Of a stretch of DNA of 25,904 nt, positions 4,317 through 25,904 are shown in pieces. This stretch comes from a virus, in IMG/VR virus record IMGVR_UViG_3300044639_001407, positions 1 to 25,904 of that record; one strand, given 5' to 3'. Position 1 is the stretch's first letter, and each line of letters begins with the position of its first letter. A program made the position numbers and the translations under genes. The notes below the pieces were generated by a model. It made no database searches. It was not told where the DNA came from and worked only from the letters and a program-made list of their open reading frames with translations.

Positions 4317-4331
4317 AACAAGGAGAATGAT

Positions 4332-4487: not shown

Positions 4488-4513
4488 ATGGTAGACAAAC
4501 CAAAATAAAACAC

Positions 4514-4542: not shown

Positions 4543-4572
4543 AGAAGCCCAACAAATAATATAGGAGCAAGG

Positions 4573-8999: not shown

Positions 9000-9654
9000 T
9001 TACTCAGCGTTGAAGGAATTTTCCCAGTGCCCTAGGAAATACCATGAGAATCGGGTGCTAAAAAAGTGGCCTTTCCCTAAGACAGATGCTATAATGTATG
9101 GCGAGGAGGTACACAAGGCACTAGAGGACTATATAGGTAGCGGGGTTGATTTAGGTAAGCATAGCAGATTCAAGGACATTGCTGATTCATTGCTCAGGCT
9201 GGAGGGGGAGAAGCTAGTCGAGTTTAAGATGGCGTTGGATCACTCTCTACAGCCGTGTGATTTCTTTGATAAAGATGTTTATCTGCGTGGGGTTGCTGAT
9301 ATTGTCGTGTTGAATAAGGCGACAAGCAAGGCGTATATAGGAGACTATAAAACTGGCGGGGATAAGTACCCCGACAAAGACCAGTTAGAGCTTATGGCGT
9401 TGATGATATTCAGGTACTTCCCGGAGATAACATACGTGAAGGCCGCGCTGTTGTTTGTGGTGCATGATACGATTGTTACTGCTGAGTACCACAAGAAGGA
9501 AGCCAAGCCCACATGGTTAAAGTGGATAGGTAAGATTAACGAAGTAGAGGCGGCACATGAAGCGGGGGTATGGAACGAAAAGCCCACGGCACTATGCCCG
9601 TGGTGCCCTGTGAATGATTGCCCGCACTGGTCAGAGAAAAGGAAAAGTAAATAA
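8989..9654 (+). CDS. Cas4/RecB-like PD-(D/E)XK nuclease with probable Fe-S cluster
   Basis: This 221-residue nuclease of the PD-(D/E)XK superfamily (PDDEXK_1, Cas4/AddB type) starts YSYSALKEFSQCPRKY, with Cys14 in the usual place. Next come His42 (GEEVHKALEDY), LRGVADIVV with Asp104, IGDYKTGG with Asp119 and Lys121, and QLELMAL with Gln132. The C-terminus has Cys203, Cys206 and Cys211 (CPWCPVNDCPHW), so with Cys14 it can hold a 4Fe-4S cluster. Relatives are 5'-3' or single-strand exonucleases used in phage recombination. No CRISPR array or cas gene lies near, so it is not part of adaptation here. It is followed at once by the HNH protein. Confidence 0.9.
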   Translation: MAYSYSALKEFSQCPRKYHENRVLKKWPFPKTDAIMYGEEVHKALEDYIGSGVDLGKHSRFKDIADSLLRLEGEKLVEFKMALDHSLQPCDFFDKDVYLRGVADIVVLNKATSKAYIGDYKTGGDKYPDKDQLELMALMIFRYFPEITYVKAALLFVVHDTIVTAEYHKKEAKPTWLKWIGKINEVEAAHEAGVWNEKPTALCPWCPVNDCPHWSEKRKSK

Positions 9655-9920
9655 TGCCTAGAAAACCTAATATACCTAAAGGTTCGCCGTACTGGAAAGA
9701 AGAATGGAAAAAGATGCAGGCTAATGGGGAAGACAAGAAGCAGCTTGAAAGGGCTAAGGCCAGAAGGATGGTCGATAAGGCGGGAATTAATAGGAAGGGT
9801 AAAGATGTAGGGCACATCAAGCCAGTGGAGGATGGGGGTAAGAGCGTGATGAGCAACTTACGTATTGAGGACTCCAGTAAAAACCAGAGTAATAATTTGC
9901 ATAAGAAGGGGGAGAAATGA
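9654..9920 (+). CDS. HNH-like nuclease (no zinc cysteines)
   Basis: This 88-residue very basic protein carries DVGHIKPVEDGGKSVMSNLR and then KNQSNN, the 'D.H..P...GG....NL......N' pattern of small HNH nucleases that lack the zinc cysteines. In most relatives the first motif is DVDH; here it is DVGH, so the residue before the catalytic His is changed and activity should be checked. The N-terminal half (PRKPNIPKGSPYWKEEWKK) resembles other phage HNH proteins with a Lys-rich DNA-binding extension. It starts after AAGGAAAAGTAATA (TAATG) and overlaps ThyX by ATGA. It may be a homing-type or a recombination nuclease. Confidence 0.7.
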   Translation: MPRKPNIPKGSPYWKEEWKKMQANGEDKKQLERAKARRMVDKAGINRKGKDVGHIKPVEDGGKSVMSNLRIEDSSKNQSNNLHKKGEK

Positions 9921-11578: not shown

Positions 11579-13341
11579 CAATAAAAAAAGATTATATCAG
11601 GGATGCACTATTCGATACCCTTGGGTTACTGAGGCTTAAGAATAGTTATATGATGGCGGGGGAGAATAGCCCCCAAGATAGGTTCGCTTATGTGTCAGAG
11701 AAGTTTAGTAGTAACCCAGACCATGCACAGCGGCTGTATGATTATGCTTCAAAACACTGGCTGTCTTACTCCACCCCAATACTGTCATATAACGAGGATA
11801 AGCGGGGGTTTGGGATTGCTTGTTTCTTGAACACCATAGCGGATACAGCCGAAGGGTTGGTTGAGAACTTATCAGAAACAAACAGGTTCTCTATGTTGGG
11901 CGGGGGGGTCGGTATTAACTTTGGGATACGTTCCGCAGATGAGAAGTCTACAGGGGTTATGCCACACCTCAAGATATATGACGCTTCCGCATTGGCATAC
12001 AAGCAAGGGAAAACTAGGAGGGGCAGCTACGCAGCGTACTTGGATATTAGTCACCCAGATATTAAGTTGTTCTTGGAGATGCGCAAACCAACGGGGGATC
12101 AGAATCTGAGAGCCTTGAATATGCACCACGGGATTAACATATCAGACAGTTTCATGGAGTTGATTGACCGATGCACACAAGACCCAGACGCTGATGATTC
12201 ATGGGATCTCAAAGACCCTAACAGCCCAGAAGTGCGCGAAGTAGTCTCAGCTAAAGAACTTTGGCAGCGTATATTAGAAACACGGATGCAGACTGGGGAG
12301 CCATACCTACACTTCATTGATGAGTCTAACCGCAAGCTGCCTTATTGGTTGAAGGATAAAGGGCTTGAAGTTAAGCAGTCGAATTTGTGTTCTGAGATCG
12401 TACTCCCAACAAACGAAGAAAGAACTGCGGTATGCTGCTTGTCCTCAGTGAACTTGGAGTATTATGATGAGTGGAAAGGCGACCCGCAGTTCTTGCTGGA
12501 TATAGCGGAGATGCTGGATAATGTATTGCAGCACTTCATTGATAATGCACCAGACAGCGTAGAGCGGGCTAAGTTTTCAGCGCGGAGTGAGCGTAGCATT
12601 GGTGTAGGGGCGTTGGGATTCCATGCTTACCTACAGAAGAACTATATCCCTTGGGAATCTGCGCAGGCGGTAGGCAAGAACTTAGCGATGTTTAAGCATA
12701 TAAGGTGCCATTTAGATTTAGCTAACGGGGTGTTAGGAAAAGAAAGAGGGGAGGCTCCAGACGCGGTTGGTACAGGGCGTAGATTTTCACACCTTATGGC
12801 AATTGCCCCCAATGCCTCCAGTTCTATTATTATGGGTAATACAAGCCCATCAATTGAGCCTTATAGAGCTAATACCTACAGACAGGACACACTATCAGGT
12901 TCTCATTTAGTCAAGAACAGGTGGCTAGATAAGGTGCTTAAAAGTAAGGTGTTGCTTGAAGAAGAATTACCTGATATATGGGCAAGTATCATCGCAAATA
13001 ATGGGTCGGTTCAACACCTAGCAATCCTGACTGAGTGGGAGAAGGATACATTTAAAACGGCAATGGAACTTGACCAGCGATGGGTGATACAACACGCTTC
13101 GGACAGGCAGCCGTTTATAGACCAAGCGCAGTCGGTTAATGTGTTCTTCAGACCTGATGCTAACATCAAGTATATCCACGCAGTACACATGCAGGCATGG
13201 AGGCAGAAACTAAAGACCCTATACTACTGCAGGTCGGAGAAGATTAACAAAGGGGATAAGTTGTATCACAAGGTAGAACGTGATATAATTAAAGAGATTG
13301 ACGCGGGTGGGGATGATAGTTGTCTTGCCTGTGAAGGATAG
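11575..13341 (+). CDS. nrdA: ribonucleoside-diphosphate reductase large subunit (class I)
   Basis: This 588-residue product, starting at the ATG in the overlap with thyX (ATGA), reduces ribonucleotides to deoxyribonucleotides together with NrdB. Catalytic residues are all seen: Cys83 (IACFLNT), Asn270-Cys272-Glu274 (SNLCSEI), Cys287/288 (VCCLSS) and the radical-path pair Tyr550-Tyr551. The C-terminal CLACEG at 583-588 is the redox tail that re-reduces the active site through thioredoxin or glutaredoxin. It is shorter than E. coli NrdA and lacks the N-terminal ATP-cone, so allosteric shut-off by dATP is not expected. It carries IDESNRKL, encoded by a 27-bp repeat shared with 8589-8615. An upstream in-frame ATG at 11518 is rejected because it lies in thyX. 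Confidence 0.96.
   Translation: MTIKKDYIRDALFDTLGLLRLKNSYMMAGENSPQDRFAYVSEKFSSNPDHAQRLYDYASKHWLSYSTPILSYNEDKRGFGIACFLNTIADTAEGLVENLSETNRFSMLGGGVGINFGIRSADEKSTGVMPHLKIYDASALAYKQGKTRRGSYAAYLDISHPDIKLFLEMRKPTGDQNLRALNMHHGINISDSFMELIDRCTQDPDADDSWDLKDPNSPEVREVVSAKELWQRILETRMQTGEPYLHFIDESNRKLPYWLKDKGLEVKQSNLCSEIVLPTNEERTAVCCLSSVNLEYYDEWKGDPQFLLDIAEMLDNVLQHFIDNAPDSVERAKFSARSERSIGVGALGFHAYLQKNYIPWESAQAVGKNLAMFKHIRCHLDLANGVLGKERGEAPDAVGTGRRFSHLMAIAPNASSSIIMGNTSPSIEPYRANTYRQDTLSGSHLVKNRWLDKVLKSKVLLEEELPDIWASIIANNGSVQHLAILTEWEKDTFKTAMELDQRWVIQHASDRQPFIDQAQSVNVFFRPDANIKYIHAVHMQAWRQKLKTLYYCRSEKINKGDKLYHKVERDIIKEIDAGGDDSCLACEG
12314..12340 (+). repeat. 27-bp perfect repeat, copy 2 (first copy at 8589-8615)
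   Basis: This copy is in nrdA and encodes IDESNRKL of the conserved PYLHFIDESNRK segment. See the copy at 8589-8615 in the small gene. Confidence 0.9.
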
Positions 13342-13349
13342 GGGAGAAG

Positions 13350-14327
13350 ATGAAACAAAAACATAATTTACTAGAAGAACGACAGTGCTTTAAGCCGTTT
13401 AATTATCCTTGGGCGTACAACGCTTGGTTGGAGCATGAGCAGAGCCACTGGGGGCCTTGGGAGGCGAAACTGGGGGAGGATGTAAAGGACTGGAATAAGA
13501 ACTTAACCGCAGCAGAGAAGAACTTATTGACCCATATTTTCAGGTTCTTTACCCAAGCGGATATTGATGTGGCGGGCGCATATGTCAAGAACTACCTACC
13601 CTATTTTCCACAACCAGAAATACGTATGATGTTGTTGGGGTTTGCTAATAGGGAAGCGGTACATATCGCAGCTTATTCACACTTGATTGAGACTCTGGGA
13701 CTACCGGAGACTACCTACAATGAGTTTGCGCAGTATCAGGAAATGAAAGAGAAGCATGAGTACTTGGTGGATATATCTAATACGCAATGTGACAAGGCAG
13801 ATACTGCAGTGCATATGGCAGTGTTCTCAGGGTTTACCGAAGGGATGCAGTTGTTCTCGTCGTTTATTATGCTGCTGAACTTCTCTAGGCAAGGCAAGAT
13901 GCGGGGGATGAAGGACATTATTACTTGGTCTATTCAGGATGAGATGATGCACTGTGATGGGATGATTAAGTTGTTCCGTGAGTATGTTAAGGAGAACCTT
14001 GATATATGGAACGACGAGACTAAGGAGAGGATATACGCAGCCGCTGAGAAGATGGTAGAACTGGAAGATAAGTTTATTGATTTGGCGTTTGCTATGGGGG
14101 ATTTAATTGATTTAACTAAAGAGCAAGTTAAGGTGTATATCCGGTACATTACTGACAGACGCTTGATTGGTTTGGGCTTGAAGGGTATTAACAAAGTGAA
14201 GCGCAATCCACTACCGTGGGTAGAAGAAATTATTAACAGCCCGATACATGGTAATATGTTTGAGACAGTAATAACAGACTATGCCAAAGGCGCATTAACA
14301 GGATCATGGGAGGAAGTATGGGCATAA
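13350..14327 (+). CDS. nrdB: ribonucleoside-diphosphate reductase small subunit (class I)
   Basis: This 325-residue di-iron subunit generates the tyrosyl radical used by NrdA. The metal ligands are visible: Asp71 (or Asp73), Glu102 and His105 (EAVHIAAY), Glu163 (FTEGMQLF), and Glu197 with His200 (QDEMMH). Tyr109, four residues after His105, is in the position of the radical tyrosine of E. coli NrdB, so a classic tyrosyl radical is expected rather than a Mn/Fe variant lacking it. It follows nrdA by eight bases, with AGGGGAGAAG as ribosome site, and its last codons (GGGAGGAAGT) serve as ribosome site for the next gene. ThyX, NrdA and NrdB form one nucleotide module. Confidence 0.96.
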   Translation: MKQKHNLLEERQCFKPFNYPWAYNAWLEHEQSHWGPWEAKLGEDVKDWNKNLTAAEKNLLTHIFRFFTQADIDVAGAYVKNYLPYFPQPEIRMMLLGFANREAVHIAAYSHLIETLGLPETTYNEFAQYQEMKEKHEYLVDISNTQCDKADTAVHMAVFSGFTEGMQLFSSFIMLLNFSRQGKMRGMKDIITWSIQDEMMHCDGMIKLFREYVKENLDIWNDETKERIYAAAEKMVELEDKFIDLAFAMGDLIDLTKEQVKVYIRYITDRRLIGLGLKGINKVKRNPLPWVEEIINSPIHGNMFETVITDYAKGALTGSWEEVWA

Positions 14328-14509
14328 CATTTACAGATAAAGGACCGTGGCGGGTGGAGAGTTTGTTAGGCGCGGTGGATGTAATTAGCAGTGATCCGAC
14401 TAACGCGGTAGGACTAAGCGTAGGGGGAGAGTGGGCAACATTAGAGGATAAAATTAAATACGCGCATGGGCTGGCGGAATTACTGAACAGACATAATGGA
14501 AATAATTGA
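14318..14509 (+). CDS. small conserved-type phage protein
   Basis: This 63-residue protein starts at the ATG at 14318, with GGAGG five bases upstream; the ATG at 14306 would lack a site. It overlaps nrdB by 10 bases. The sequence (KGPWRVESLLGAVDVIS, then KIKYAHGLAELLNRH) has the 'GPW.V...(V)DVI.........ya..La.LLN' pattern found in many short phage proteins with no known function. A beta-sheet and a C-terminal helix are likely. It overlaps the helicase start. Confidence 0.6.
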   Translation: MGITFTDKGPWRVESLLGAVDVISSDPTNAVGLSVGGEWATLEDKIKYAHGLAELLNRHNGNN

Positions 14510-16052
14510 AAACAAAGCACTTCTCATTAATGTCAGAGATCCGGGAAAGTACACATCGCTTATTGGGACTAGCAAGTATGTGCGGCAAGTATCGGATGAC
14601 CTGCATGAGGTGCTGGTTAAGTGGGATTATGACAATGTAGCTACATTAACTGCGCTTGGGGTTCATAAGGTACCGTCGACTATATACAAGGACTACGCTT
14701 GGAGTGGCAGGTTTACTCCGATGATACACCAGAAGGATACGGCTTCGTTTATTGTGGCTAATCCTAAGTGTTTTGTGTTTAGCGAGATGGGTGTGGGTAA
14801 GACAGCAAGTACGGCATGGGCGGTTGATTATCTTTTGCGGCATAAGAAGGTGAAACGGGTACTGATTGTGTGCCCCCTGTCTATTATGAAGGCAGCATGG
14901 CAGAAAGATCTATTCTCTGTGTTGCCCCACAGGTCGGTAGGGATTGCACATGGTTCAGTTAAGACGCGGAGATGTATTATTCGTGGTAAGTATGAGTTAG
15001 TGATTATTAATTATGATGGCATACTGACGGTACTACCCGAACTACTGGAGGCGGGGTTTGACTTTATTGTAGCAGACGAAGCAACAGCGTTAAAAAATAT
15101 CGGGACGGACAGATGGAAGGCATTTAATAAGTTAGCTGTGGTAAGTCCTAGGTTAGCCCTACTGACAGGAACTCCCGCCGCGCAGTCACCAGAAGATGCG
15201 TATGGGTTAGCTAAGTTAGTTTGTCCTGACAGGGTGCCTAGGTTTTTTGGGGCGTGGCGTGATACCGTGATGCAGAAGTTATCTATGTTTAGGTATATAC
15301 CAAAGCCTAACGCAAACGAGATAGTTTTCGCGGCGCTACAACCAGCGATACGCTACACAAAGGCTGAATGCTTAGACCTGCCAGATATGATGTACGAAAC
15401 GCGGGACGTGCCTATGACCCCACAGCAGGAGAAGTATTACAATATGCTGAAGAAACAGATGCTTATTACTGCGGCGGGGGAAACAATCACTGCGGTTAAC
15501 GCTGCGGTACAGATGACACGGCTCTTGCAAATTAGTTGCGGCGCGTGTTACAGTGATGATGGGGCGCCTATATATTTCGATATAACAAATAGGTTGACGG
15601 AATTAGAGAATGTTATTGACGAGAGCCTACAAAAGGTGATAGTATTTGTACCCTACACTCACACAATAGAAGTTATTGAGGCATATTTACAGAAGAAAAA
15701 AATAGCTTGTGCGGTCATTAATGGCAAGGTATCAGCGACAAAACGCGCAGCAATTATTGACAGTTTCCAAGAAAGTGATACACTAAGAGTAGTGATTATC
15801 CAACCGAAAGCTGCGGCACATGGGATTACTTTGACTGCGGCTAATACGGTAGTGTGGTTCGGGCCAACGGCTAGTGTGGAAACGTACTTACAGGCTAACG
15901 CCCGCGCACACAGGAACGGACAGCAGCATAAAGTTACTGTTATAATGATACAAGGCAGCCCAGCGGAGGAAAAGATGTATAAAATGTTAAATGCGAAGGT
16001 AGACCACCACATGAAGTTGATTGACTTATATGATGAGGTGTTACATGAATAG
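14496..16052 (+). CDS. SNF2-family (superfamily 2) DNA helicase/translocase
   Basis: This 518-residue SF2 ATPase has motif I GVGKT at 99-103, motif II DEAT at 194-197 (DEAT in place of DEAH), motif III TGTP at 224-227, a motif V-like HGITLTAANTVVW and motif VI with QANARAHRNGQ. The arrangement and the 'AR.HR.GQ' finger are typical of SNF2-like phage helicases, which usually accompany PolA-type replication genes. It probably unwinds or translocates on DNA in replication or repair. The first 70 residues are a phage-specific N-terminal region. It starts within the preceding gene (overlap 14 bases) and overlaps the next by eight bases. Confidence 0.92.
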   Translation: MEIIENKALLINVRDPGKYTSLIGTSKYVRQVSDDLHEVLVKWDYDNVATLTALGVHKVPSTIYKDYAWSGRFTPMIHQKDTASFIVANPKCFVFSEMGVGKTASTAWAVDYLLRHKKVKRVLIVCPLSIMKAAWQKDLFSVLPHRSVGIAHGSVKTRRCIIRGKYELVIINYDGILTVLPELLEAGFDFIVADEATALKNIGTDRWKAFNKLAVVSPRLALLTGTPAAQSPEDAYGLAKLVCPDRVPRFFGAWRDTVMQKLSMFRYIPKPNANEIVFAALQPAIRYTKAECLDLPDMMYETRDVPMTPQQEKYYNMLKKQMLITAAGETITAVNAAVQMTRLLQISCGACYSDDGAPIYFDITNRLTELENVIDESLQKVIVFVPYTHTIEVIEAYLQKKKIACAVINGKVSATKRAAIIDSFQESDTLRVVIIQPKAAAHGITLTAANTVVWFGPTASVETYLQANARAHRNGQQHKVTVIMIQGSPAEEKMYKMLNAKVDHHMKLIDLYDEVLHE

Positions 16053-16452
16053 TGAAACGGAGTATAATTTAGAGCAGTTGGTTATGGTAGATAAAAAGAT
16101 GGGGGTGAAGATCGATGAGCTAGAAGAGGAAGTAAAAACGATAGCGGAAAAAAGGAAGCAGGTGCGAGAAGCAATAGGCGATTTGATGAAGGAGCAGGGA
16201 GTAGAGTCAAGCCGTACTAAGTATGGTACGGTGACTAGAGGTGTTACTGAGAGGTATTGGACAGGAGATTGGATCGCGCTGCACCAGTATATCGCAGACC
16301 ACGGAGCGTTAGAGTTGCTAGAAAAGCGGGTATCACAGACTAACATGAAGGAATGGATATTAACCCATCCAGATGACTTCCCTCCCGGCTTGAACTTGTC
16401 GAGAGAATATACAATTAAAATTACTAAACCAAGAAAGACTACAGGAGAATAA
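16045..16452 (+). CDS. coiled-coil phage protein of unknown function
   Basis: This 135-residue product starts at ATG 16045, overlapping the helicase stop by eight bases (GAGGTG as ribosome site); an earlier start at 16021 is rejected. Residues 18-50 (IDELEEEVKTIAEKRKQVRE) form a coiled coil. The rest, with GTVTRGVTERYWTGDW, ALELLEKRVSQTNMKEW and HPDDFPPGLNLSREY, is a conserved-looking domain I recall next to phage single-strand-binding-type genes. A function in recombination (for example Gam-like protection of ends) has been proposed for coiled-coil proteins of this shape, but there is no direct evidence here. It is followed within three bases by the next gene. Confidence 0.6.
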   Translation: MNSETEYNLEQLVMVDKKMGVKIDELEEEVKTIAEKRKQVREAIGDLMKEQGVESSRTKYGTVTRGVTERYWTGDWIALHQYIADHGALELLEKRVSQTNMKEWILTHPDDFPPGLNLSREYTIKITKPRKTTGE

Positions 16453-16455
16453 ATT

Positions 16456-17331
16456 ATGAGCAACGACATTACATTGTTTGACGGTAACACAGCAGTACCA
16501 GCACACATCGCAGCAAGGGCAGCAAGCGCAGCAACACTTGCTTTGGCAGGTAAAGGGGCATCAAGTAAGCGTATATCAATCGAAGGCGGTACGTTCAGGA
16601 TGATTGTCGATGGTAAGGAAATTGCCAAGACTAAAGCTAGGGATATGAACATCGTTATTGTTCGCCCTGCCCCTGCCACCAGTCGCGCTTATTATGACCC
16701 AACAGTAGCATACCAACGGGGGGTTGCGGTAGCGCCACTATGTACTTCTCTAAGCGGCGATAAACCAGACGCGCAGAGCGAGGAACCCCAAGCCTCTAAA
16801 TGCCAAGAGTGCCCACAGAATATCGCGGGGTCGGGTAAAAACAACTCGAGGGCGTGTCGGTTCTTTAGGCGGTTGGCGGTGGTGCAAGAGAGTGATATGG
16901 AGGGGGCGGTGTATCAGCTTAATATCCCTGCGACTTCCCTGTTCGGGGATGGGGTTAATGGGCAACAGCTACCACTGGAAGCCTACGCTAAGATGCTGAA
17001 GTCCAATAATGTAAACGTGGATGATGTTGTGACTAACATGGAGTTCGATACGGATGCCGCGACACCAAAGCTGACGTTCTCGGCTAATAGGTTCCTGACC
17101 CCCCAAGAGCTGGTAGTTATCACAGAGCAGGGAGACACTAAAGAAGCACGACAAGCTACGGGAGAAATTGCATATGGTGCAGAAAGTACGCAACAAAAGA
17201 AACTCGCTCCTGTGGTGGAGCAGAGGGCAGTGGAAGAAACCCCTGTTGCAGAGCCTACCAAGAAGCCTAAAGTGGTTGAACGAGACACCAAAAAAATCAA
17301 TTCCGTAATTGATGAGTGGGAAAATATGTAA
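16456..17331 (+). CDS. four-cysteine phage protein, possible single-strand DNA-binding role
   Basis: This 291-residue protein begins SNDITLFDGNTAVPAHIA and continues with ISIEGGTFRMIVDGKEIAK, a beta-rich region. Four cysteines, Cys96, Cys116, Cys119 and Cys134 (KCQECPQN, RACRFFRR), could bind zinc. The sequence resembles a phage family I know from replication operons as a conserved protein of uncertain role. The last 60 residues are charged and disordered, rich in Pro, Val, Lys and Glu, and end in an acidic-aromatic tail (IDEWENM). Many single-strand DNA-binding proteins have such tails, which recruit partners. I infer, but cannot prove, a DNA-binding role. A strong terminator follows 18 bases after the stop, so it is the last gene of the first operon. 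Confidence 0.6.
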   Translation: MSNDITLFDGNTAVPAHIAARAASAATLALAGKGASSKRISIEGGTFRMIVDGKEIAKTKARDMNIVIVRPAPATSRAYYDPTVAYQRGVAVAPLCTSLSGDKPDAQSEEPQASKCQECPQNIAGSGKNNSRACRFFRRLAVVQESDMEGAVYQLNIPATSLFGDGVNGQQLPLEAYAKMLKSNNVNVDDVVTNMEFDTDAATPKLTFSANRFLTPQELVVITEQGDTKEARQATGEIAYGAESTQQKKLAPVVEQRAVEETPVAEPTKKPKVVERDTKKINSVIDEWENM

Positions 17332-17348
17332 GTATTGGGGTTTACGCG

Positions 17349-17380
17349 CCCCCATCATATTGGTGGGGGTTTTATTTTCT
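17349..17380 (+). terminator. rho-independent terminator after the first operon
   Basis: A nine-base-pair stem, CCCCCATCA pairing with TGGTGGGGG (17349-17369, one T-G wobble), closes a three-base loop TAT and is followed by TTTTATTTTC. It ends the operon that begins at the left edge, 18 bases after the stop at 17331. Confidence 0.9.
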
Positions 17381-17393
17381 TGGGGGTAAACAG

Positions 17394-17588
17394 ATGAGCA
17401 ACGAAGATTACGGGAACGACCAAGCCGGGTTAGTGGAGGAAATCGAGGAACAGCTCGACGAACTGGCCTCATACGGATATGTGTTTACTGAGGCGGAACA
17501 AGCAGCGGTTATCCGCTACCTCTGTGTGCTAGATGAGTGTGGGATGATGGAAGAATACGAAGAAAACCAACAGGATATGATTGACTGA
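17394..17588 (+). CDS. acidic 64-residue protein
   Basis: This small very acidic product starts at the ATG at 17394, about 14 bases after the terminator's T-run, with GGGGGTAAACAG upstream. It is rich in Glu and Asp (LVEEIEEQLDEL and MMEEYEENQQD). A middle segment (VFTEAEQAAVIRYLCVLDECGM) looks like a helical hairpin with two cysteines. A longer frame starting at 17316 crosses the terminator and is rejected. No promoter is obvious before it, so it may depend on read-through. It overlaps the primase start by eight bases. Function is unknown. Confidence 0.55.
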   Translation: MSNEDYGNDQAGLVEEIEEQLDELASYGYVFTEAEQAAVIRYLCVLDECGMMEEYEENQQDMID

Positions 17589-20421
17589 TATGGATACGCT
17601 AATTAAAAGCGTGGTGCCACAGCAGGGGGTGTATTGCCTTAACACAATACTAGAGGGTTCGGTACACCAGACTTTCCACGATACCCCAGATGAGCTAGTT
17701 ACTGAAGGTGTGATAGCATCTTTATCTGGAAGAAACGCCTATTATGCAATGGCTTCGTTTAAGGATAGTTCTTCTCGCGGGCAGCAGAACGTGCGGGCAG
17801 TTAAGTCTTTCTGGCTTGATGTGGACTGCAAGGATATGCTACCTAATAAGGACTATGCCAATAAGGATGAAGGCAAGCAAGCTATAATAGACTTCGTTAA
17901 AGCGCAAAAGTTCCCTCGGCCTACTATTGTCGACTCGGGTAACGGCTGGCATGTGTACTGGATATTGGAAGAAGAAGTGACCCCGGAGTTGTGGCAACCC
18001 CTCGCAGATAAACTAAAGACCGTATGCCTCAAGACAGGATTACGGATAGACCCAGCGTGTACGGCTGACAGCGCGAGGATACTGCGCATACCAGATACCT
18101 ATAACTACCGTTTTAACCCACCATCTAAGGTGGAACTAATCAGACATAGCCCTGTAGTAAGTTTCAGTGAGTTTAGTAGCGTAGTCGAGGCAGCATACGA
18201 GCCGTTTCGCGCTTTACAGAACCCCCATAAACGCGGGGTAAGCGCCGCAACTCAAGCCCTATTGGGGAACACCGAATCTAGTTTCAAGAAGATTTTAGTG
18301 CGTAGCACTGCAGGCACAGGATGTGAGCAGATATTGTTAGGGGTGCAGAATCAAGCAGAGATTGAAGAGCCTTTATGGAGGGGGATGCTCTCGATAGCAC
18401 AGCAGTGTTCGGACAGGGAAAAGGCAATACCGTTTGTATCTAACAAACACCCTGAATATGATATGGATGAGTCGTTCAAGAAGGCAGAGCAAACTAAAGG
18501 ACCCTACACTTGTGCCACATTAGATAGTATTAACGCAGGGGTATGTAGTTCATGCACTCATTGGGGGCGCATTACAAGCCCCATACAGCTCGGCAAAGAG
18601 ATTATAGCTATCAAAGCCCCAATAACGGTAAACATCGCGCCTGAAGTGGTTGTGGAGCCTGTGGATGACGCCGTAGAAACAACACCAGACCAGAACCTAG
18701 AGGCCTACGAACAGGAAGAACTGAAGGTAGTAATACCCGTGCCTCCTGCACCATATTCACGCGGGGTACATGGGGGTATTTATAAACGAACTAAATGCGA
18801 AGATGGCACTTTTGATGACGTACTAATTTATGAGAATGATTTTTATGCCCATGCGAGATTATATGACCCGGCTGACGGGCAAGTTCTGGCTTGTAGACTA
18901 CATCTACCCCTTGATGGCGTTAGAAACTTTAATATCCCGCTACAGTCAGTAGGCTCCAAGGATAGGTTAAGAGATGTTATTTGTAAGCAGGGGGTTGCGG
19001 CGTCAGATAAAACTGTGGTAGAATTAAGCAACTACTTAATATTGATGGCGAAGGAGCTACAGAGGATGAGCAAAGAAGAGCAGGCACGGACGCAGATGGG
19101 GTGGCAAGATGATGATAGCTTTGTGATAGGCGCTAGGGAATACTCTAAGGATGGAATAAGGCACTGCCCCCCATCAAATGCGACTACTAATTACCAACAC
19201 ATGTTCAGGATGGAAGGCGACATAAAAGAATGGAGAAAAGTAATTGACATATATAAACTGCCGGGGTTTGACATACATCAGTTTATATTCTTTACCGCGC
19301 TAAGTTCGCCGTTCTTGAAGCATATTGAAGTTGAGGGCATGATGACCTCCATGATTTCCGATGAGTCTGGGATTGGTAAGACTACGCTATGTATGGCATG
19401 TAATAGTATTTGGGGGCACCCTAAAGAAATGATGAGTATGCCGCATGATACTGTTGCCGCGCTTATTAATCGGATGGGGGTATTTCATAGTATGGCGGTA
19501 GTAGTAGATGAGCTTACCAATAAAGAAGCGAAGCCCTGCAGTGACATTCTGTATATGGCTACCCACGGCAAAGGCCCCGCTAGAATGACAAGTGGCGCTA
19601 ATGTGGAACGAGTGAATAATACAACATGGAACCTAAACGTACTCACAACGGCTAACGCATCAATCCGTGATAAGGTTTCCGCATATAAGGCATCAGCAGA
19701 GGGGGAGAACATGCGCCTGTTCGAGTTTGATATGCGCGGAACTCCGGTAATCCCCAAGGCAGAAGCGGATGCTGTGTTCTCGAAGATGAACGATAACTAT
19801 GGGGTAGCGGGGCATATATTCACATCATGGCTGGTTAAGAATGTTAAAGATATTAAAAGGATAGTATTACAGACACAAGCCATCATGGATAAACGGTTTG
19901 CCTTCACTAGCAAGGAGCGTAAATGGTCATCCTGTGTAGCTGCTGCATATACAGTAGCGTATATTGCCAAGAGTTTAGGACTCCATGACTTTGATATAGA
20001 GCGTAATATTCTGTTCATGGTTGCCTACGTGCAACGGATGCGTGGGGAAGTCAAAGAAGGGGTTACGCAGCACTGCGACTTGATCGCTAATTTCATGGGG
20101 GAGAATCACAGCAGTATCTTGATAATCAACGGATACCCCGACCCAAAAACAGGGCTGTTTGATGCCCCGCGCAACAAGAATATTAATAAAATCATAGGCA
20201 GATACGAGCCAGATACAGGTAAGTTAAGCCTATCCGCAGCGGTATTAAGGGAATACTGTGCCAAAAAACAGTACTCGTTTAGCAGCTTGACTGCACTATC
20301 TGGCGGTAAAATAGAGTCTCGCAGGCTGGCGGTAGGTACGGGTATTGTAGCAGCATCAGTCAGGGTTATTACCTTCGATACCAAGATGGCTGGGCTTGAT
20401 ATGTCTATGTGGGAGGATTGA
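17581..20421 (+). CDS. primase-polymerase / helicase fusion (DUF927-type)
   Basis: This 946-residue protein joins two replication activities. The N-terminal archaeo-eukaryotic primase (prim-pol) has LDVD at 79-82, SGNGWHVYW at 119-127 and RILRIPDTYNYR at 166-177, the three motifs of this fold. A cysteine cluster (VCSSCTHW, with CATLD upstream) near 310-330 may be a zinc site. The C-terminal part is a DUF927-like ATPase with Walker A ESGIGKT at 595-601 and Walker B VVDE at 641-644. It would prime and unwind for the family A polymerase at 6589. The start is TTG 17581 (AGGA five bases upstream) or ATG 17590 (14 bases from AGGA); I prefer the TTG on spacing, though phages mostly use ATG. The downstream gene starts in a TGATG overlap. 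Confidence 0.9.
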   Translation: MTDMDTLIKSVVPQQGVYCLNTILEGSVHQTFHDTPDELVTEGVIASLSGRNAYYAMASFKDSSSRGQQNVRAVKSFWLDVDCKDMLPNKDYANKDEGKQAIIDFVKAQKFPRPTIVDSGNGWHVYWILEEEVTPELWQPLADKLKTVCLKTGLRIDPACTADSARILRIPDTYNYRFNPPSKVELIRHSPVVSFSEFSSVVEAAYEPFRALQNPHKRGVSAATQALLGNTESSFKKILVRSTAGTGCEQILLGVQNQAEIEEPLWRGMLSIAQQCSDREKAIPFVSNKHPEYDMDESFKKAEQTKGPYTCATLDSINAGVCSSCTHWGRITSPIQLGKEIIAIKAPITVNIAPEVVVEPVDDAVETTPDQNLEAYEQEELKVVIPVPPAPYSRGVHGGIYKRTKCEDGTFDDVLIYENDFYAHARLYDPADGQVLACRLHLPLDGVRNFNIPLQSVGSKDRLRDVICKQGVAASDKTVVELSNYLILMAKELQRMSKEEQARTQMGWQDDDSFVIGAREYSKDGIRHCPPSNATTNYQHMFRMEGDIKEWRKVIDIYKLPGFDIHQFIFFTALSSPFLKHIEVEGMMTSMISDESGIGKTTLCMACNSIWGHPKEMMSMPHDTVAALINRMGVFHSMAVVVDELTNKEAKPCSDILYMATHGKGPARMTSGANVERVNNTTWNLNVLTTANASIRDKVSAYKASAEGENMRLFEFDMRGTPVIPKAEADAVFSKMNDNYGVAGHIFTSWLVKNVKDIKRIVLQTQAIMDKRFAFTSKERKWSSCVAAAYTVAYIAKSLGLHDFDIERNILFMVAYVQRMRGEVKEGVTQHCDLIANFMGENHSSILIINGYPDPKTGLFDAPRNKNINKIIGRYEPDTGKLSLSAAVLREYCAKKQYSFSSLTALSGGKIESRRLAVGTGIVAASVRVITFDTKMAGLDMSMWED

Positions 20422-20606
20422 TGAGGGAGAGGTTACTGCGCTGGGTGCTTGAAAATGGCGAGGGGTATGGGCATTATAGCCCTTATGGGCCTTATGGGGG
20501 GGATACGCACTACGGAGACCTACTAGAGCATAGTTATATAATATGGAAGGAACGTTTGGGGTACAAAATAACCCCGGCTGGACTGGAGTACCTGAAAAAT
20601 GCGTGA
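20421..20606 (+). CDS. small winged-helix-like protein (paralogue family member 3)
   Basis: This 61-residue protein starts in TGATG directly after GGGAGGATTG; an upstream ATG at 20409 lies inside the primase and is less well placed. It begins LLRWVLENGEGYG, a drifted version of the EHGDR motif, and ends YKITPAGLEYLKNA, the family hallmark. The middle (YSPYGPYGGDTHYGDLL) is a low-complexity Gly/Tyr/Pro stretch unlike the others. Its last codons form junction J2 and hold the ribosome site for the next member. Probably a diverged regulator or a decayed copy; function unknown. Confidence 0.7.
   Translation: MRERLLRWVLENGEGYGHYSPYGPYGGDTHYGDLLEHSYIIWKERLGYKITPAGLEYLKNA
20585..20606 (+). repeat. 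coupling junction J2
   Basis: GGAG at 20585-20588, then TACCTGAAAA and ATG at 20599-20601, ending GCGTGA. It encodes the C-terminus (LEYLKNA), the ribosome site and start of the next gene, and the stop of this gene in one 22-base unit. Confidence 0.85.
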
Positions 20607-20796
20607 GACACTGATGAAACTGCTACTGGAGCACGGGGATAGGGAGTTTGATTATAAGCTGTTACAGCCTATACCTTGGTTTAAATTAATTGACTCGGGG
20701 TATTTAGTCCGGCATGGGGTTAGGCCCAACCCCCCAATAACTATGCTAAAAATAACCCCCGCTGGACTGGAGTACCTGAAATCCGATGCTGATTGA
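20599..20796 (+). CDS. small winged-helix-like protein (paralogue family member 4)
   Basis: This 65-residue protein starts in junction J2. It has LMKLLLEHGDREFDY, then WFKLIDSGYLVRHG, and ends LKITPAGLEYLKSDAD. Of all members it shows the plan most clearly: an N-terminal helix, a middle helix, a turn, and a C-terminal strand plus helix. Its 3' end, again with GGAGTACCTGAAA, carries the ribosome site of the next gene (ATG 20786), which overlaps by 11 bases but encodes an unrelated protein. A DNA-binding role is inferred from the fold-like pattern. Confidence 0.8.
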   Translation: MRETLMKLLLEHGDREFDYKLLQPIPWFKLIDSGYLVRHGVRPNPPITMLKITPAGLEYLKSDAD

Positions 20797-20992
20797 GTTG
20801 CCTGATGGGGGGCATATTGACATACCGATTGAGCATATGATAGTTAAGGACAGCATATTTATTCCCACGCTGGAGGCGGGCAAGGCCAAGAAGTTAATAA
20901 ATAAAGTGTCAGATGAGTTAGAAATACAGACAAAATGTAAACAAGTAGTGTATAATGGGTATTTAGGGGTAATAATTTGGAGAGTCGCATGA
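20786..20992 (+). CDS. small conserved-type phage protein
   Basis: This 68-residue protein is unrelated to its winged-helix neighbours. It reads VKDSIFIPTLEAGKAKKLIN, then QVVYNGYLGVIIWRVA. The 'DS.F(I/V)P.L' and 'GYLGV..WRV' patterns are familiar from many short phage proteins of unknown role and suggest a small beta-alpha-beta-beta unit. It is read from ATG 20786 after GGAG, 14 bases upstream; the next gene starts inside its last codons (ATGA). Confidence 0.65.
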   Translation: MLIELPDGGHIDIPIEHMIVKDSIFIPTLEAGKAKKLINKVSDELEIQTKCKQVVYNGYLGVIIWRVA

Positions 20993-21354
20993 ATATAGAC
21001 AAAGCCGTGGCAGCGATAGAAGCCATTATATCCCCACCAGATGAGACCCCGGTGCTACCCACGAATATTTATTCTATACTGAACGCAATTAGGCGCGGTT
21101 TATATACCAATATAGATGAAAATAAGCCAGAGCATAGGCTGGCTGTAGGGGTCATTATGCAGGCCATCTCGGATTACTGCAACGGCGATGCGTATATACC
21201 TACCCCAATATATAAGCGGAAAGAGGCATATATATCAGGCACTCAGTTCTTAACGGGGGAAGGGTTGAGGTACTGGGCAGCGGTGGCGGGGCTATCCCAC
21301 GAAGACATATATAGGGCGGCGGCTAAGACTAAGGAGTACCTGAAAAATGCGTGA
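20989..21354 (+). CDS. hypothetical protein with junction-encoded C-terminus
   Basis: The start is the ATG at 20989, after GGAGAG (seven bases) and overlapping the previous stop by ATGA; TTG 20977 would be an alternative. The 121-residue protein is mostly helical: NIDKAVAAIEAIISPP, YSILNAIRRGLYTNID and RLAVGVIMQAISDYCNG. I recognise no family. Its end (KTKEYLKNA) is encoded by junction J3, the same sequence that ends the winged-helix genes, though the rest is unrelated. That suggests the junction was placed here by recombination, or kept because it provides the next gene's ribosome site. Confidence 0.6.
   Translation: MNIDKAVAAIEAIISPPDETPVLPTNIYSILNAIRRGLYTNIDENKPEHRLAVGVIMQAISDYCNGDAYIPTPIYKRKEAYISGTQFLTGEGLRYWAAVAGLSHEDIYRAAAKTKEYLKNA
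21331..21354 (+). repeat. coupling junction J3
   Basis: AAGGAG at 21331-21336, then TACCTGAAAA, then ATG at 21347 and TGA at 21352-21354. GGAG at 21333 begins a 49-base stretch identical to the one starting at 21499. Confidence 0.85.
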
Positions 21355-21520
21355 CTTATTGTTGAAGCTGCTACTGGAGCACGGGGATAGGGAGTTTGAG
21401 TGGCCCCACTGGCACCAAGATGAGTATTTTTCTATGATTCGTGCGGGTTATTTAGGCCTTGGAGAACTAGAAAAATATAACATAACCCCACAAGGACTGG
21501 AGTACCTGAAAAATGCGTGA
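21347..21520 (+). CDS. small winged-helix-like protein (paralogue family member 5)
   Basis: This 57-residue protein starts at ATG 21347 in junction J3. It reads LLLKLLLEHGDREFEW, then EYFSMIRAGYLG, and ends YNITPQGLEYLKNA. The gene is very similar to its downstream neighbour in its first part, including 49 identical bases (21333-21381 and 21499-21547), and it differs in the middle. It overlaps both neighbours: its last codons are junction J4. It is probably a recent tandem duplicate. Function is unknown; DNA binding is inferred. Confidence 0.75.
   Translation: MRDLLLKLLLEHGDREFEWPHWHQDEYFSMIRAGYLGLGELEKYNITPQGLEYLKNA
21499..21520 (+). repeat. coupling junction J4
   Basis: GGAG at 21499-21502, TACCTGAAAA, ATG at 21513 and TGA at 21518-21520. 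It is identical to J2 and J3 over 22 bases. Confidence 0.85.
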
Positions 21521-21725
21521 CTTATTGTTGAAGCTGCTACTGGAGCATGGGGATAGGGGGTTTATTGGAGTTAGGCAGCGTGGGGGGTTAGGGCTGCTAT
21601 GGAAAGCAGGGTTAATTAGTATTGATAGTGAGGCGGTGCCACCCGCAAACTTTGAAATATCCCCCATGACATTCAAAATATCCCCAAAAGGACTAGAATA
21701 TCTCAAAAACATTGACAATCCGTGA
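21513..21725 (+). CDS. small winged-helix-like protein (paralogue family member 6)
   Basis: This 70-residue protein starts in junction J4. It reads LLLKLLLEHGDRGF, then LGLLWKAGLISIDS and ends FKISPKGLEYLKNIDN. It is the last plus-strand gene before the convergent boundary. The C-terminal tail differs from the others (KNIDNP instead of KNA) because no further gene follows and no junction is needed. The -35 box of the promoter at 21712 lies in its last codons. The family pattern is clear; function is unknown. Confidence 0.75.
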   Translation: MRDLLLKLLLEHGDRGFIGVRQRGGLGLLWKAGLISIDSEAVPPANFEISPMTFKISPKGLEYLKNIDNP

Positions 21726-21740
21726 TTTATAAGCTATTCT
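21712..21740 (+). promoter_or_regulatory. consensus-like sigma70 promoter on the plus strand
   Basis: TTGACA at 21712-21717 and TATTCT at 21735-21740 are separated by exactly 17 bases. The -35 box is perfect, the -10 box matches four of six. Transcription would start near 21747 and run into the terminator at 21771-21800 or, with read-through, antisense into the virion gene. Confidence 0.55.
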
Positions 21741-21770
21741 ATCCATGCAACATTCTCTGTAAGTCTTTTT

Positions 21771-21800
21771 ACCCCCGTGCAATGCGGGGGTTTGTTATTT
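21771..21800 (+). terminator. rho-independent terminator of the plus-strand genes
   Basis: ACCCCCG (21771-21777) pairs with CGGGGGT (21785-21791) around a seven-base loop, followed by TTTGTTATTT. The T-run overlaps the stop codon of the minus-strand gene (21795-21797). On the minus strand the hairpin is followed by an A-rich tract, so it works mainly for plus-strand transcripts. Confidence 0.8.
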
Positions 21801-24800
21801 GCCTAGTTCTTTTCTTATCGCTGGTAGTTCTTTTTCCAGTATCTTATTAGCCATCGCATCTAGCCTGCTGATTTCCGCTCTTGCGGTTGCCGGGTTCTCC
21901 CGTACCGCAGCTTTCTTAGCTTCTCGCATTTCATTCAACAGCGAGGTCATATCTTTCAGGCTGTCATGCACCCTAAGCAGTGGGAGATTCGCTTTTTGAT
22001 ACGCTTCAGCTTTTTCTGGGTGGTGTTTCTCTAGGTCAGCTAAGGTATTCCACGCCCTATTGGATTCGTCTGCCAGATCATACAGGTCAGATACACGAGC
22101 ATTGCCTTCCTTATCGTAAAATATCCCGCCAACTAGGGGCAGACGGTTCGCTTTTTGCGCAGGTTTGTCACCTACTAACATATCTACGGTGTACAAGGCG
22201 TCGCGCCCCACGCTACCGAACCACCCCTTGATGAGGTTGTCTATCTTTATCGGACTCATGTTGGCTGTGTTACCGCCCAACTTCTGTAACTCATCGCTTA
22301 TAGCTTTGGAGAACTCGCTAGTACTGTCACCAAACTGCATGTTAACATCTTTCTGTTGCAGCGTGTACCCAACTAACGGCTTCCCAGTAAGGGTAGAGTG
22401 ATTAAATGCGTTTTCTACCAGTGGCTTAATCGCCGTGGGGTTTATGTCACTTGGGCCAACGAGCAGATTTTTAGCGGCGTTGCTCACAGCTTGAGCAAAC
22501 TTCCCTTTGGTTTCGTTAATGTTACCTGCCATCATCCGGTAGCTTTTCTCTATGGCTATTTTCAGTGGTAGAAACTCAGGCGTAGCGGGTATTTTTACTC
22601 CCCCCAACAAAAAGTTGTTGTTCGCGGTATTCTCGTCTGCACGTTCCCGGTCATCACTGCCCGAGGTAGCCATAGTGTACATCATTGTGTACGCCGCAAA
22701 CGTAAGTATCTTTTTCGCAACTAGCTTCTTAGCCTCAGCTTTAGTTACCCCCGGAAGGCGCCCCTGCAGGGCCATAAGCACCCTATAATCCCCCTGAACC
22801 CGGCAATTTATGAACGGAGCAAGGGCCATAAGCACACTAACATGCTGCCCCTGACCGCGATTCTGGTAGTTGTACATCATAATAGCCCGGGCAGTAGCGT
22901 CGTTCTGCGTACCCCCATGATCCATAACGTCTTTGTACACGGCAAGGCGGTTGGATAAATCTTGCGCCCGTGCTATTCGCTCGGCCTTCTCAAACCACTT
23001 GGATATACCCGTGCGCGTCGCCCCACGGACTTCTTTGTTCCAGTTATCATAAGTATCCTGATAATCAATAGCGCCTACTATACCTGCCGCACGGCCTTCT
23101 CTAGCAAGGGGGGATTCTCCACCAAAAGCGTTCTTGCGAAACTCCGGCAGGGAAGTTTTGGCTAACCCTAATACACCTGACGTAGTGCCCGCAGTGAAGG
23201 AAGCCCGTTGGGGGTCTTGTAGTAGCTGGTTATAGGTAAATGTAGGCATCAGGGTAATGCCTTTACGCAGCATACCTGTAGCTGTTCTGGCTATACGCAC
23301 CGCTATATTGTTTACAACTGGAGCCGCATGGAATATTGCCGCGTCATTCCTATTTAGAACTTTGAACCACTGCGACTGCCCCTGCTTGAGATATTCTACG
23401 TTGTTGCCCTGTTTGTCATCGCGGGGTATTTCAAACCCACCTTGCGTGTTATCATCTTTATTCATGCGCATCATATCATCAGCAACGAGATTAGCTGTAT
23501 TATTAGCCATGCCGCGCTTAATCAAAAACACTTGATTATTAATGATATTTTCCATCACATCTTTTATTTCCAGCCCGCCAGCACCTTTGATATGATGCTC
23601 TTTTTTAGCTGATAGCAGCCCGCGCAAGTGCGCTCCTGTAGACTCACCGGGGGGAATCTCACGATTGAACGGCACATACTCCATCCTGTCAAGGAACTCG
23701 CGGGCTTTCTTAGGGGTAAATAAGTTGGTATCAACCAAGAACTGCATGGTCTTTTCCCTTATCTTCTGGTGCATATCCCGCCACGCCCGGAACTGTGCAG
23801 CATACTTAGCCTGCATCTTCTTACCATAAAGATACTCAGCGTTGGTAATGCCTGTATCTATGCCCATTGCCTCTAGCTCTTTATGTCGGTCTGCTATGAG
23901 CATATAATCAATGGACGTATCCGCTAAGGCATCTGACATCCCATCGGCCTTCATATCAGCGCGTATCTGTGTGGATATACCAGCCAAAGCCCTCATATTA
24001 CTGGCAGCGGGTATTACATGCGCCACGCCTTCTTTGTCTAGTTGCGGGAACCCACGATTCACTGCCTCCATAGCGATGTTATCCGCCTGTAGGGTTCTAT
24101 GTAGGTTTACAAACCCAACCTCTTTCCCAGTAAGGGGGTTCAGTCGCTCTCCAGTACCATACATCGTTCCGTGTTTGAGTGCGTGGGCTTCCCCAGCACC
24201 TACATTCTTCTGCGCTAAGTACCCCCAAAGGTCATTATCTGTTATCTCATTGAACCGAGCTTTAAGTTTAGCTATCACGCCCTCTTGTGTTAGTCGTTTT
24301 GGGAGGCGGATACCATTTTGCGCAGCGATAGCCTTATCTGCTGGTGATGGAGGAATTTGTTTTTCAAATGAAAACTGCGCAGGGGCATCGGCTGTTGTCT
24401 TTTCCGCTGTGGGGGTTGTTTTGGTATCAGGCATTGATTCTACCCGAGCGGCGCCCATGACTAAATCAACTATGTCTTTAGCTTTTAGTGTCTCTGGGGC
24501 GTAGCGGAGTTTGTGCAATGAATCAGTAATACCCGCCCAAAGATCACGAAGCCAGCCGACAACTTTATCGAATTCTTTTGGTTGTGTTTCAAGCGGGTCA
24601 ATCCCGTATTTATTAACGGCAATTTCTGTGAAATAGGCAACAACTTCTTGGTTATATCGGTCAGAGCCTACAGGCTCCCCAGACGCATTAGCTCGCGCTA
24701 TAGCTTCTTTAGCTATAGTTATTTCAGCCTTTTCCTTACCAAACATAGGGGAAGTGGCTGATGTAGCCCACGTATTAACACGATTAGCTAAGGCTTTGAT

Positions 24801-25904
24801 TCTGCTCGCACCTATCAGTTTAGTCAGCCCTAAGTGGCCTCCTTTTTCGTGCAGGATCGTACCTTTCGCATTTCCTTTAGGTATATGGCTGGCGATATAA
24901 TAATCTTGCCCTTTATGAACGAATGCCTTAGCGCCTCCTGCCTTAACGTCTGCTATTACATCGCTGGGGAGAATCCCCTCAAGGCCTGAAAGGTCGTTTA
25001 CTACGATAGGTGGTTTACGCGCTATTTGGTTGGGGGTAAGCAACTCCCCCATAGCTTGATTTACTTCTTCTGTTGTGCTTGGTTCTACGGGCGGTACGTC
25101 TTCCTTGGACTCATCCTTGGATTCTTTGGAAAGTTGCGAATTTCTGCGCCTAATCTGCGCAGCCACAGCCTGCATCGGTGATACATCATCTTCATGGGAC
25201 TGCCCTTTCTCGTATGCTTTTACAACCCGCGATTGGTCAGCGGGGGTCAGTGATTCAAATGGAACATCGCTTAGGCTTGCCCACTCTTCCTGCGCTGCTA
25301 GTGTATCTTGCCTGCTTCCCTCGCGAACTCCACTGACCGCATTGTTTGTGTTAGCATCCCCGCTAGGAACTCCCACTCCCCCGGACTCAGTGACTTGAGT
25401 TTCTTGAGTTGTGGTTGGTGCCCGCTGTGTAGGCAATGGAACGCTCGGCTCAGTTCGTGATCCGACAGCATCACTTGTGTTTCCACTCGTTTGAGTATTA
25501 GGGCTGGGGCGGTTGGTTGACTCATTCATTACCTCCGATTGTTGGCGAAGCTTAGATTCTATCACATCTAACCGCTCTAATGCAAGTTGGGCAGCTTGTT
25601 GTCTAGCTTCAGATAAATTACCCTTGCCGTTTGCCTCGTCGGTTAGAATGTCTTTAAAAGCGTCGATGTTCTCCTGAGTGGATAAGTCCCCCACCTTTTT
25701 GAGCGCATTGCGCACCTTCTTATCACTCGGGCGCACCCCCAAATCAGTAAGCATAGCGTCATTTATTACTGTAGATTGCGCGGCATCTTGCGCAAAGGGC
25801 GCGGCTGTAGGTTGTGGGTCTGTTGGTATTCTTGTTGGGTCAAAACCAGTAGGCTGCAGCGCATCTACATATCTACGGTACGCTGCAGGATCACTACTAC
25901 CTGT
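21795..25904 (-). CDS. giant virion-associated protein, 5' end missing (LPD38-like)
   Basis: The minus-strand frame stays open from its TAA at 21795-21797 to the right edge, at least 1,369 codons. The ATG at 25754-25752 is probably internal, because codons upstream (RIPTDPQPTAAPFAQ) continue without a stop. The N-terminal third has Ser/Thr/Pro/Gln-rich linkers, then LHEKGGHLG (24834-24851), which looks like a zinc-peptidase HExxxH variant. The long helical remainder includes AHLRGLLSAKK and, near the end, NPTAIKPLVENAFN with TGKPLVG, which matches my memory of the LPD38 domain of large polyvalent proteins. Such giants in podovirus-like phages are internal virion or ejection proteins that enter the cell with the DNA. 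A hydrophobic stretch (ILTFAAYTMMYTMATSG) may contact membrane. It is the only minus-strand gene here. Confidence 0.75.
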   Translation of the reverse strand, partial: TGSSDPAAYRRYVDALQPTGFDPTRIPTDPQPTAAPFAQDAAQSTVINDAMLTDLGVRPSDKKVRNALKKVGDLSTQENIDAFKDILTDEANGKGNLSEARQQAAQLALERLDVIESKLRQQSEVMNESTNRPSPNTQTSGNTSDAVGSRTEPSVPLPTQRAPTTTQETQVTESGGVGVPSGDANTNNAVSGVREGSRQDTLAAQEEWASLSDVPFESLTPADQSRVVKAYEKGQSHEDDVSPMQAVAAQIRRRNSQLSKESKDESKEDVPPVEPSTTEEVNQAMGELLTPNQIARKPPIVVNDLSGLEGILPSDVIADVKAGGAKAFVHKGQDYYIASHIPKGNAKGTILHEKGGHLGLTKLIGASRIKALANRVNTWATSATSPMFGKEKAEITIAKEAIARANASGEPVGSDRYNQEVVAYFTEIAVNKYGIDPLETQPKEFDKVVGWLRDLWAGITDSLHKLRYAPETLKAKDIVDLVMGAARVESMPDTKTTPTAEKTTADAPAQFSFEKQIPPSPADKAIAAQNGIRLPKRLTQEGVIAKLKARFNEITDNDLWGYLAQKNVGAGEAHALKHGTMYGTGERLNPLTGKEVGFVNLHRTLQADNIAMEAVNRGFPQLDKEGVAHVIPAASNMRALAGISTQIRADMKADGMSDALADTSIDYMLIADRHKELEAMGIDTGITNAEYLYGKKMQAKYAAQFRAWRDMHQKIREKTMQFLVDTNLFTPKKAREFLDRMEYVPFNREIPPGESTGAHLRGLLSAKKEHHIKGAGGLEIKDVMENIINNQVFLIKRGMANNTANLVADDMMRMNKDDNTQGGFEIPRDDKQGNNVEYLKQGQSQWFKVLNRNDAAIFHAAPVVNNIAVRIARTATGMLRKGITLMPTFTYNQLLQDPQRASFTAGTTSGVLGLAKTSLPEFRKNAFGGESPLAREGRAAGIVGAIDYQDTYDNWNKEVRGATRTGISKWFEKAERIARAQDLSNRLAVYKDVMDHGGTQNDATARAIMMYNYQNRGQGQHVSVLMALAPFINCRVQGDYRVLMALQGRLPGVTKAEAKKLVAKKILTFAAYTMMYTMATSGSDDRERADENTANNNFLLGGVKIPATPEFLPLKIAIEKSYRMMAGNINETKGKFAQAVSNAAKNLLVGPSDINPTAIKPLVENAFNHSTLTGKPLVGYTLQQKDVNMQFGDSTSEFSKAISDELQKLGGNTANMSPIKIDNLIKGWFGSVGRDALYTVDMLVGDKPAQKANRLPLVGGIFYDKEGNARVSDLYDLADESNRAWNTLADLEKHHPEKAEAYQKANLPLLRVHDSLKDMTSLLNEMREAKKAAVRENPATARAEISRLDAMANKILEKELPAIRKELGK

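Follow-up and report, generated by a model that had tools for sequence, protein, structure and literature searches.

Repeated minimal winged-helix-like genes with near-identical junctions and divergent middles in a bacterial virus, and their family in its relatives

We analyzed a 25,904-base IMG/VR fragment of the bacterial virus IMGVR_UViG_3300044639_001407 (hereafter the window), in which a family of very small genes recurs on the plus strand. Four members lie close together after the primase gene: A (20421-20606, 61 amino acids, aa), which starts at the primase stop, B (20599-20796, 65 aa), C (21347-21520, 57 aa) and D (21513-21725, 70 aa). E (159-371, 70 aa) lies upstream of an AAA ATPase gene, and F (3907-4104, 65 aa) downstream of a gene for a VWA/DUF2201 protein and two Ala-rich open reading frames (ORFs). 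The initial annotation had claimed these six ORFs as paralogues; each indeed runs from ATG to stop, and they are homologous, since a search with 20599-20793 hit six places in the window, the query itself included, with E-values of 1.2e-43 to 2.5e-4. The sequence motifs proposed as common to all hold loosely, the exceptions being ENGEG in A, AHGDS in F and the ending AAGLNFLK in E. A probable distant member, G (8438-8698, 86 aa, plus strand), follows the DNA polymerase gene.

The cluster at the primase junction is missing in all six relatives inspected there (three of which, L010, L011 and L013, are much alike); in them the gene matching 20786-20992 (plus strand) directly follows the primase gene, and in the window A and B intervene. 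A 125-aa ORF (20977-21354, plus strand) is not a family member, and its last codons carry the family's end sequence. D is the last gene before a terminator-like hairpin (21771-21791), which separates the cluster from a convergent minus-strand gene (21795-25754) for a 1319-aa protein with an LPD38 polyvalent-protein domain.

An iterated family profile was run over 158 sequence pieces holding 10,409 distinct ORFs of 35-400 aa, and its final set comprised 36 ORFs at E <1e-3. All six members scored E 3e-17 to 4e-11 with this profile, which was trained on the window genes that it then scores; with the 10,409 ORFs shuffled at constant composition, the best of the five E-values printed was 2.8. The 38-row family alignment includes two weak genes of related phages, L040:6563 (E 0.062) and L047:6514 (E 0.096), as well as G, so later matches of these three to the alignment arise by construction. 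An additional L042 gene outside both the alignment and the profile listing matches the alignment at E 4e-7. Some loci are redundant: L046 duplicates L044, L039 lies in contig G002 of the window phage itself, and L048 and L091 are nearly one phage. For G, which had been put forward as a possible distant copy, the main profile gives no match at E 50, and a subgroup profile built from members in related phages ranks it as the best window ORF (E 0.08); from sequence and model we regard it as a probable member.

Structure prediction, the check proposed for a winged-helix fold, bore the fold out for B and less cleanly for G, the two members modeled. The AlphaFold2 model of B, made from the 38-row alignment (mean predicted confidence, pLDDT, 92.2), is a minimal winged helix with helix 2-12, strand 17-18, helix 19-22, helix 27-32, strands 36-42 and 47-52 and helix 54-61. 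Helix 2 thus has four residues and helix 3 six, and the predicted monomer has no extra dimerization helices. G is also predicted to be a winged helix (pLDDT 85.3), from an alignment that assumes its kinship, and compared with known structures it reached at best Z 7.3 over 82 residues at 2.7 Å. The Foldseek neighbors of the B model were PadR, MarR and eS10 proteins, with a best E of 0.038.

Profile libraries did not place the family. None of the 38 members matched any Pfam family at E 0.01, and the best scores against MarR, PadR, HTH_34 and HTH_45 (12.3-12.4 bits) fell short of the cut-offs of 25.5-27. NCBIfam gave no match for the four members tried. With PHROG, four of the six window members matched phrog_3675 (unknown function) weakly (E 0.065-0.41) and one phrog_12206 (E 0.21), while three sister-phage members had no match at E 0.01; none of five family proteins matched the PADLOC anti-phage defense profiles at E 0.01. 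A literature search recognized no publication on such a family, a weak negative because subscription papers lay outside its coverage.

In related phages the members surround a core trio of genes for the AAA ATPase, a 286-aa protein of unknown function (MID) and the VWA/DUF2201 protein. We found members in all 12 IMG/VR contigs with a VWA gene sharing 53% or more identity with that of the window, and (at E <0.1) in none of 51 loci with a VWA gene at most 38% identical, some of these being short fragments. When 27 whole records were searched with a profile that contains the three weak members, 12 had matches and 15 had none, and the 12 were the same contigs with the closer VWA gene. A member occupies the AAA-MID gap in 11 of 11 relatives (one of them weak) and the MID-VWA gap in 8 of 11; in the window phage, whose copies stand upstream of AAA, after VWA, probably after the polymerase and, four of them, after the primase, both inner gaps measure 16 bases by alignment and hold no member. 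The largest set seen is in phage G009, with about ten members around AAA-MID-VWA (L040 3088-4497 and 9230-10128). Dozens of phage contigs (window 361-3527; L039-L101) keep the trio together, and its genes are arranged in three or more different orders. Pfam, PHROG and NCBIfam gave no match for MID, and the VWA/DUF2201 protein (2361-3527) matches phrog_1314, whose label, HNH endonuclease, looks wrong.

The phage of the window is also present as a 55,573-base contig (G002), and a comparison of window bases 1-25,000 with 50,697 phage records gave no near match; a tblastn search of the same records with B gave no match at E 1. The named phages matched over most of the primase were Pseudomonas phage Rollin and four Rhizobium phages, which share 27-29% identity with it. 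In the record parts searched of two named distant phages (L191, L192) no family member appeared at E <19, and a pattern scan in the host search found no AAA or primase relatives in genome contigs.

In a tree of the family the six window copies group together (support 94/96), as do 8 of 10 AAA-MID copies (92/93) and 5 of 8 MID-VWA copies (95/97). In G009 an upstream copy groups with that phage's own MID-VWA copy (100/86), which suggests that copies may switch positions as well. Few inner branches (4 of 35) earn the tool's star level, the proteins being short.

That the window holds a diverging multi-copy set was borne out and extends to the related phages. The initial annotation had located the divergence in the recognition helix; variation does lie in the middle of the proteins, and it spans strand 1, helix 2, helix 3, strand 2, the wing and strand 3. 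Mean pairwise identity among the six members is 0.02-0.33 in the elements from strand 1 to strand 3, compared with 0.55 for helix 1 and 0.76 for helix 4. For the 15 pairs of members, alignments of the middle segments score no higher, or barely higher, than those of shuffled sequences (z -1.1 to 1.9), although one stretch of the ungapped B and C middles reaches an identity of 0.6. In the AAA-MID copy of the three closest sister phages the differences fall mostly in the strand-1/helix-2 stretch and helix 3 is nearly unchanged; in the wider set of eight orthologues, with the helices placed by alignment, variation also reaches the first half of helix 3, while the second half of that helix stays conserved.

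Those three sister phages (L042, L045 and L049) provide a close view of how the members change. Their AAA proteins are 95-99%, MID proteins 98% and VWA proteins 95-96% identical, compared with 85-89% for the AAA-MID copy and 77-83% for the domain of the MID-VWA copy. Between L045 and L049 the AAA-MID copy shows no differences at the 54 positions of codons 1-18, 21 at the 36 positions of codons 19-30 and 10 at the 120 positions thereafter, a patch with p 2.7e-12 for a segment picked after viewing the alignment. In its middle, pS (synonymous sites) is 0.86 and pN (other sites) 0.51. Because synonymous and other sites changed alike, replacement of a patch, probably by recombination, fits better than selection on point changes. 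Over the same segments the other two pairs have 7, 12 and 12 and 7, 14 and 2 differences. For the middle of the MID-VWA copy, pN/pS in the three pairs is 0.37/0.17, 0.27/0.27 and 0.40/0.10, from about six synonymous sites. Copies are also gained or lost: L042 has one member more than L045 and L049, and two members of L047, a weak additional one between AAA and MID and one between MID and VWA, are missing in L048 and L091, phages that share 93%, 98% and 95% identity with L047 in AAA, MID and VWA. Within G itself, 27 base pairs (bp) in the strand 2/wing region of the model (8589-8615, plus strand) are identical, in the same frame, to ribonucleotide reductase DNA at 12314-12340; in 20 resampled windows no exact repeat was longer than 20. 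Since the encoded motif is native to reductases, the reductase gene is the likely donor of this stretch, a single case in a gene of probable membership.

The junctions between members behave in the opposite way to the middles. A 17-bp element comprising a Shine-Dalgarno site and the ATG stands, exact and on the plus strand, before F (3893-3909, at the end of an unrelated Ala-rich ORF), B (20585-20601, within the end of A), C (21333-21349, at the end of the unrelated 125-aa ORF) and D (21499-21515, within the end of C). The genes upstream of F and C are thus non-members, yet their ends carry the element. With up to three mismatches it has five matches where 0.06 are expected; E, A and G lack it, and among 192 loci exact copies occur only in the window phage. 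At two junctions the identity extends over 65 bp spanning the gene boundary (21333-21397 and 21499-21563, plus strand; 63 of 65 positions identical), and outside this repeat it falls to 0.26 and 0.14. Codon usage was compared at shared residues, leaving Met and Trp aside: identical codons occur in 26 of 30 cases over the last 12 codons of A, B and C and in 34 of 40 over the first 17 codons of B, C and D, compared with 1 of 18 for the first codons of A against B, C and D and 12 of 26 for the last codons of D against A, B and C. The tandem Ala-rich ORFs at F are alike up to an AAGGAG ribosome site and different beyond it, and we infer that cassettes were joined at this site. The same pattern in an unrelated protein is seen in this Ala-rich pair (3524-3715 and 3708-3920), which shares 52 identical bases near the 5' end and has otherwise diverged.

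As many as 37 of the 38 members overlap a possible next start, and 32 have a Shine-Dalgarno-like site in their own end. We dropped translational coupling as a special property of the family, as 18 of 25 member-free gene pairs in the window, with starts chosen manually, overlap too. The four junctions form no stable hairpin (fold z 0.2 to 1.2), and no known RNA was found at them. Promoter-like sites are frequent in 20300-21800 (9 versus 2.9 expected), but none overlaps the junction repeats and such matches are no proof of promoters.

The constancy of helices 1 and 4 and the variability of the face from strand 1 to the wing suggest a scaffold for different partners. Our preferred reading, to which we give a probability of roughly 40%, is that the members are accessory early proteins sharing a single minimal winged-helix scaffold, diversifying binders of which each copy has a different protein partner. 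Strand 1, helix 2, helix 3 and the wing face would form the binding surface, and the partner of a given copy might be a host factor, a client or a part of the adjacent AAA-MID-VWA machine. The genes would act as small cassettes, translationally coupled at gene junctions, that phages copy, move, lose and partly rewrite, probably through recombination, and the junction DNA with the ribosome site and start of the next gene would travel along with them. It is conceivable, though we think it improbable as a whole, that the gene ends double as core helices, next start site and recombination handles, and that phages exchange or patch the binding face between them, at times drawing on an unrelated gene such as that for ribonucleotide reductase, and thereby maintain a shifting set of binders around a ring-ATPase module.

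The initial annotation favored DNA-binding regulators, each copy acting on a different operator and tuning phage or host promoters. The winged-helix fold, structural neighbors that are mostly MarR/PadR proteins, some of them solved with DNA, the position of helix 3 within the variable part and, for what such matches are worth, the excess of promoter-like sites all agree with this. On the other hand, the unit is short, with abbreviated helices 2 and 3 and no dimerization helices in the model, no member matches Pfam, and helix 3 of the AAA-MID copy is nearly constant among the closest sisters, even if its first half varies over the orthologues. Net charge does not help to decide: it ranges from -5 to +3 in the family, and E. 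coli MarR (+4), MprA (0) and NfeR (-3) cannot be separated from it (SlyA gave no motif match), so we abandoned near-neutral charge as an argument against DNA binding. The short helix-2/helix-3 unit and a turnover reminiscent of an arms race tip the balance slightly toward protein partners, making binding to proteins somewhat more likely than transcriptional regulation, which we consider doubtful without dismissing it. Several observations weigh against our preference: the fold is typical of DNA-binding proteins and its nearest structures are mostly regulators, and charge offers no counterargument; the pairs with L042 are less clean, with 7 of 54 differences in codons 1-18, mostly synonymous; in the L042-L045 middle pS (0.65) exceeds pN (0.25); the rates are computed from 6-8 synonymous sites in each segment; further early genes of the sister phages vary as well, down to 44-45% identity; and no patch donor of at least 13 bases was found within the phages' own contigs (G005, bases 1-60,000 of 62,773; G011, bases 1-20,000 of 20,245).

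Two other readings start from the gene neighborhood. The members could be small partners of the AAA-MID-VWA machine and of nothing else, adaptors that direct the ring ATPase and its VWA partner to their targets, with the primase and polymerase copies as recent offshoots. Outside the window phage all members found in the searched records do lie around the trio, and the AAA-MID position is filled in all 11 relatives (in one of them weakly); yet the window phage, which lacks both inner copies, has kept AAA, MID and VWA at 53-61% identity to its relatives, and has copies at the primase and probably at the polymerase, which makes this restricted role unlikely. Alternatively, the genes might be selfish coding cassettes, or cassettes of little function, that persist by fitting between coupled genes and supplying the next ribosome site. 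Their overlaps with following starts, their internal Shine-Dalgarno-like sites and their gain and loss between close phages are what such elements would show, but overlap is common among the other window genes, core residues and predicted fold are retained across deep divergence, and the AAA-MID copy is widely kept. We judge this the least probable of the explanations.

A predicted fold and a mapped variable face are now available for an unnamed phage protein family, together with natural before-and-after pairs in near-identical phages. If the faces do bind host or machine proteins, the family would be a compact scaffold that phages diversify a few dozen bases at a time, and small dark-matter ORFs would be tied to the widespread, unexplained AAA-MID-VWA cluster of phages. 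Elsewhere in the window, a gene for the flavin-dependent thymidylate synthase ThyX (9917-11578) is split by an intein with an HNH endonuclease-like region, and a sister contig carries, in the part past the window, long tandem and hexamer repeats (L035 5560-5860, 8059-8160 and 8527-8600).

Among known proteins, MarR and PadR regulators, which dimerize via added helices and bind operators, share the order of the fold. The best VIA-align match of the B model was MarR 3u2r (Z 7.9, 64 residues, 2.2 Å), and the best Foldseek matches were 1ub9 and the PadR protein Rv3488 (E 0.04-0.05). The window members differ in their length of 57-86 aa, the shortened helix-2/helix-3 unit, the lack of added dimer helices in the model and the lack of a Pfam match. 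As Z stays below 8 and no Foldseek match reaches E 0.001, the resemblance is one of fold and not of kinship. A profile search of PDB sequences listed eS10 (E 2e-4) and YjcQ (2hgc, E 0.003), headed by an artificial DARPin (E 8e-19 over 37 positions) that we judged to be an artefact of a shared short motif; the list is therefore no evidence of kinship. Small phage proteins in BFVD also resemble the model, the best being A0A7U0G9G4 of Salmonella phage vB Seyj1-1 (E 5.5e-3, TM 0.76 on the query), with many further uncharacterized phage proteins of 61-140 aa at probabilities near 1, although none of 707 matches reached E 0.001 and most have no function given. Minimal winged helices are common in phages, and the fold itself is not novel.

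For the junctions, two phage systems invite comparison. T4 promoter early stem-loops carry a promoter and a stem-loop at each junction. Window junctions lack the hairpin and their promoter-like sites lie off the repeats; the likeness is that common junction DNA may permit exchange of small genes, as described for T4-like phages (PMC4503421). The Start Associated Sequences of Cluster K mycobacteriophages, as presented in PMC3203893, are 13-bp repeats in 11-19 copies before genes of different families, mostly in gaps of more than 50 bp. Both repeats are short, have a ribosome-site core and stand by start codons of non-structural phage genes (PMC3203893), whereas the window element has 17 bp including the ATG, occurs in four exact copies before one downstream family, lies inside the overlapping upstream gene and differs in sequence from the 13-bp repeat published there. 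Small accessory genes with fast turnover are an already known kind of phage gene, and the present family fits among them; what is new here is the 17-bp start element, the contrast between near-identical junctions and unalignable middles, the combination of copy presence or absence with a patch-like difference between close phages, and the 27 bp identical to the reductase gene.

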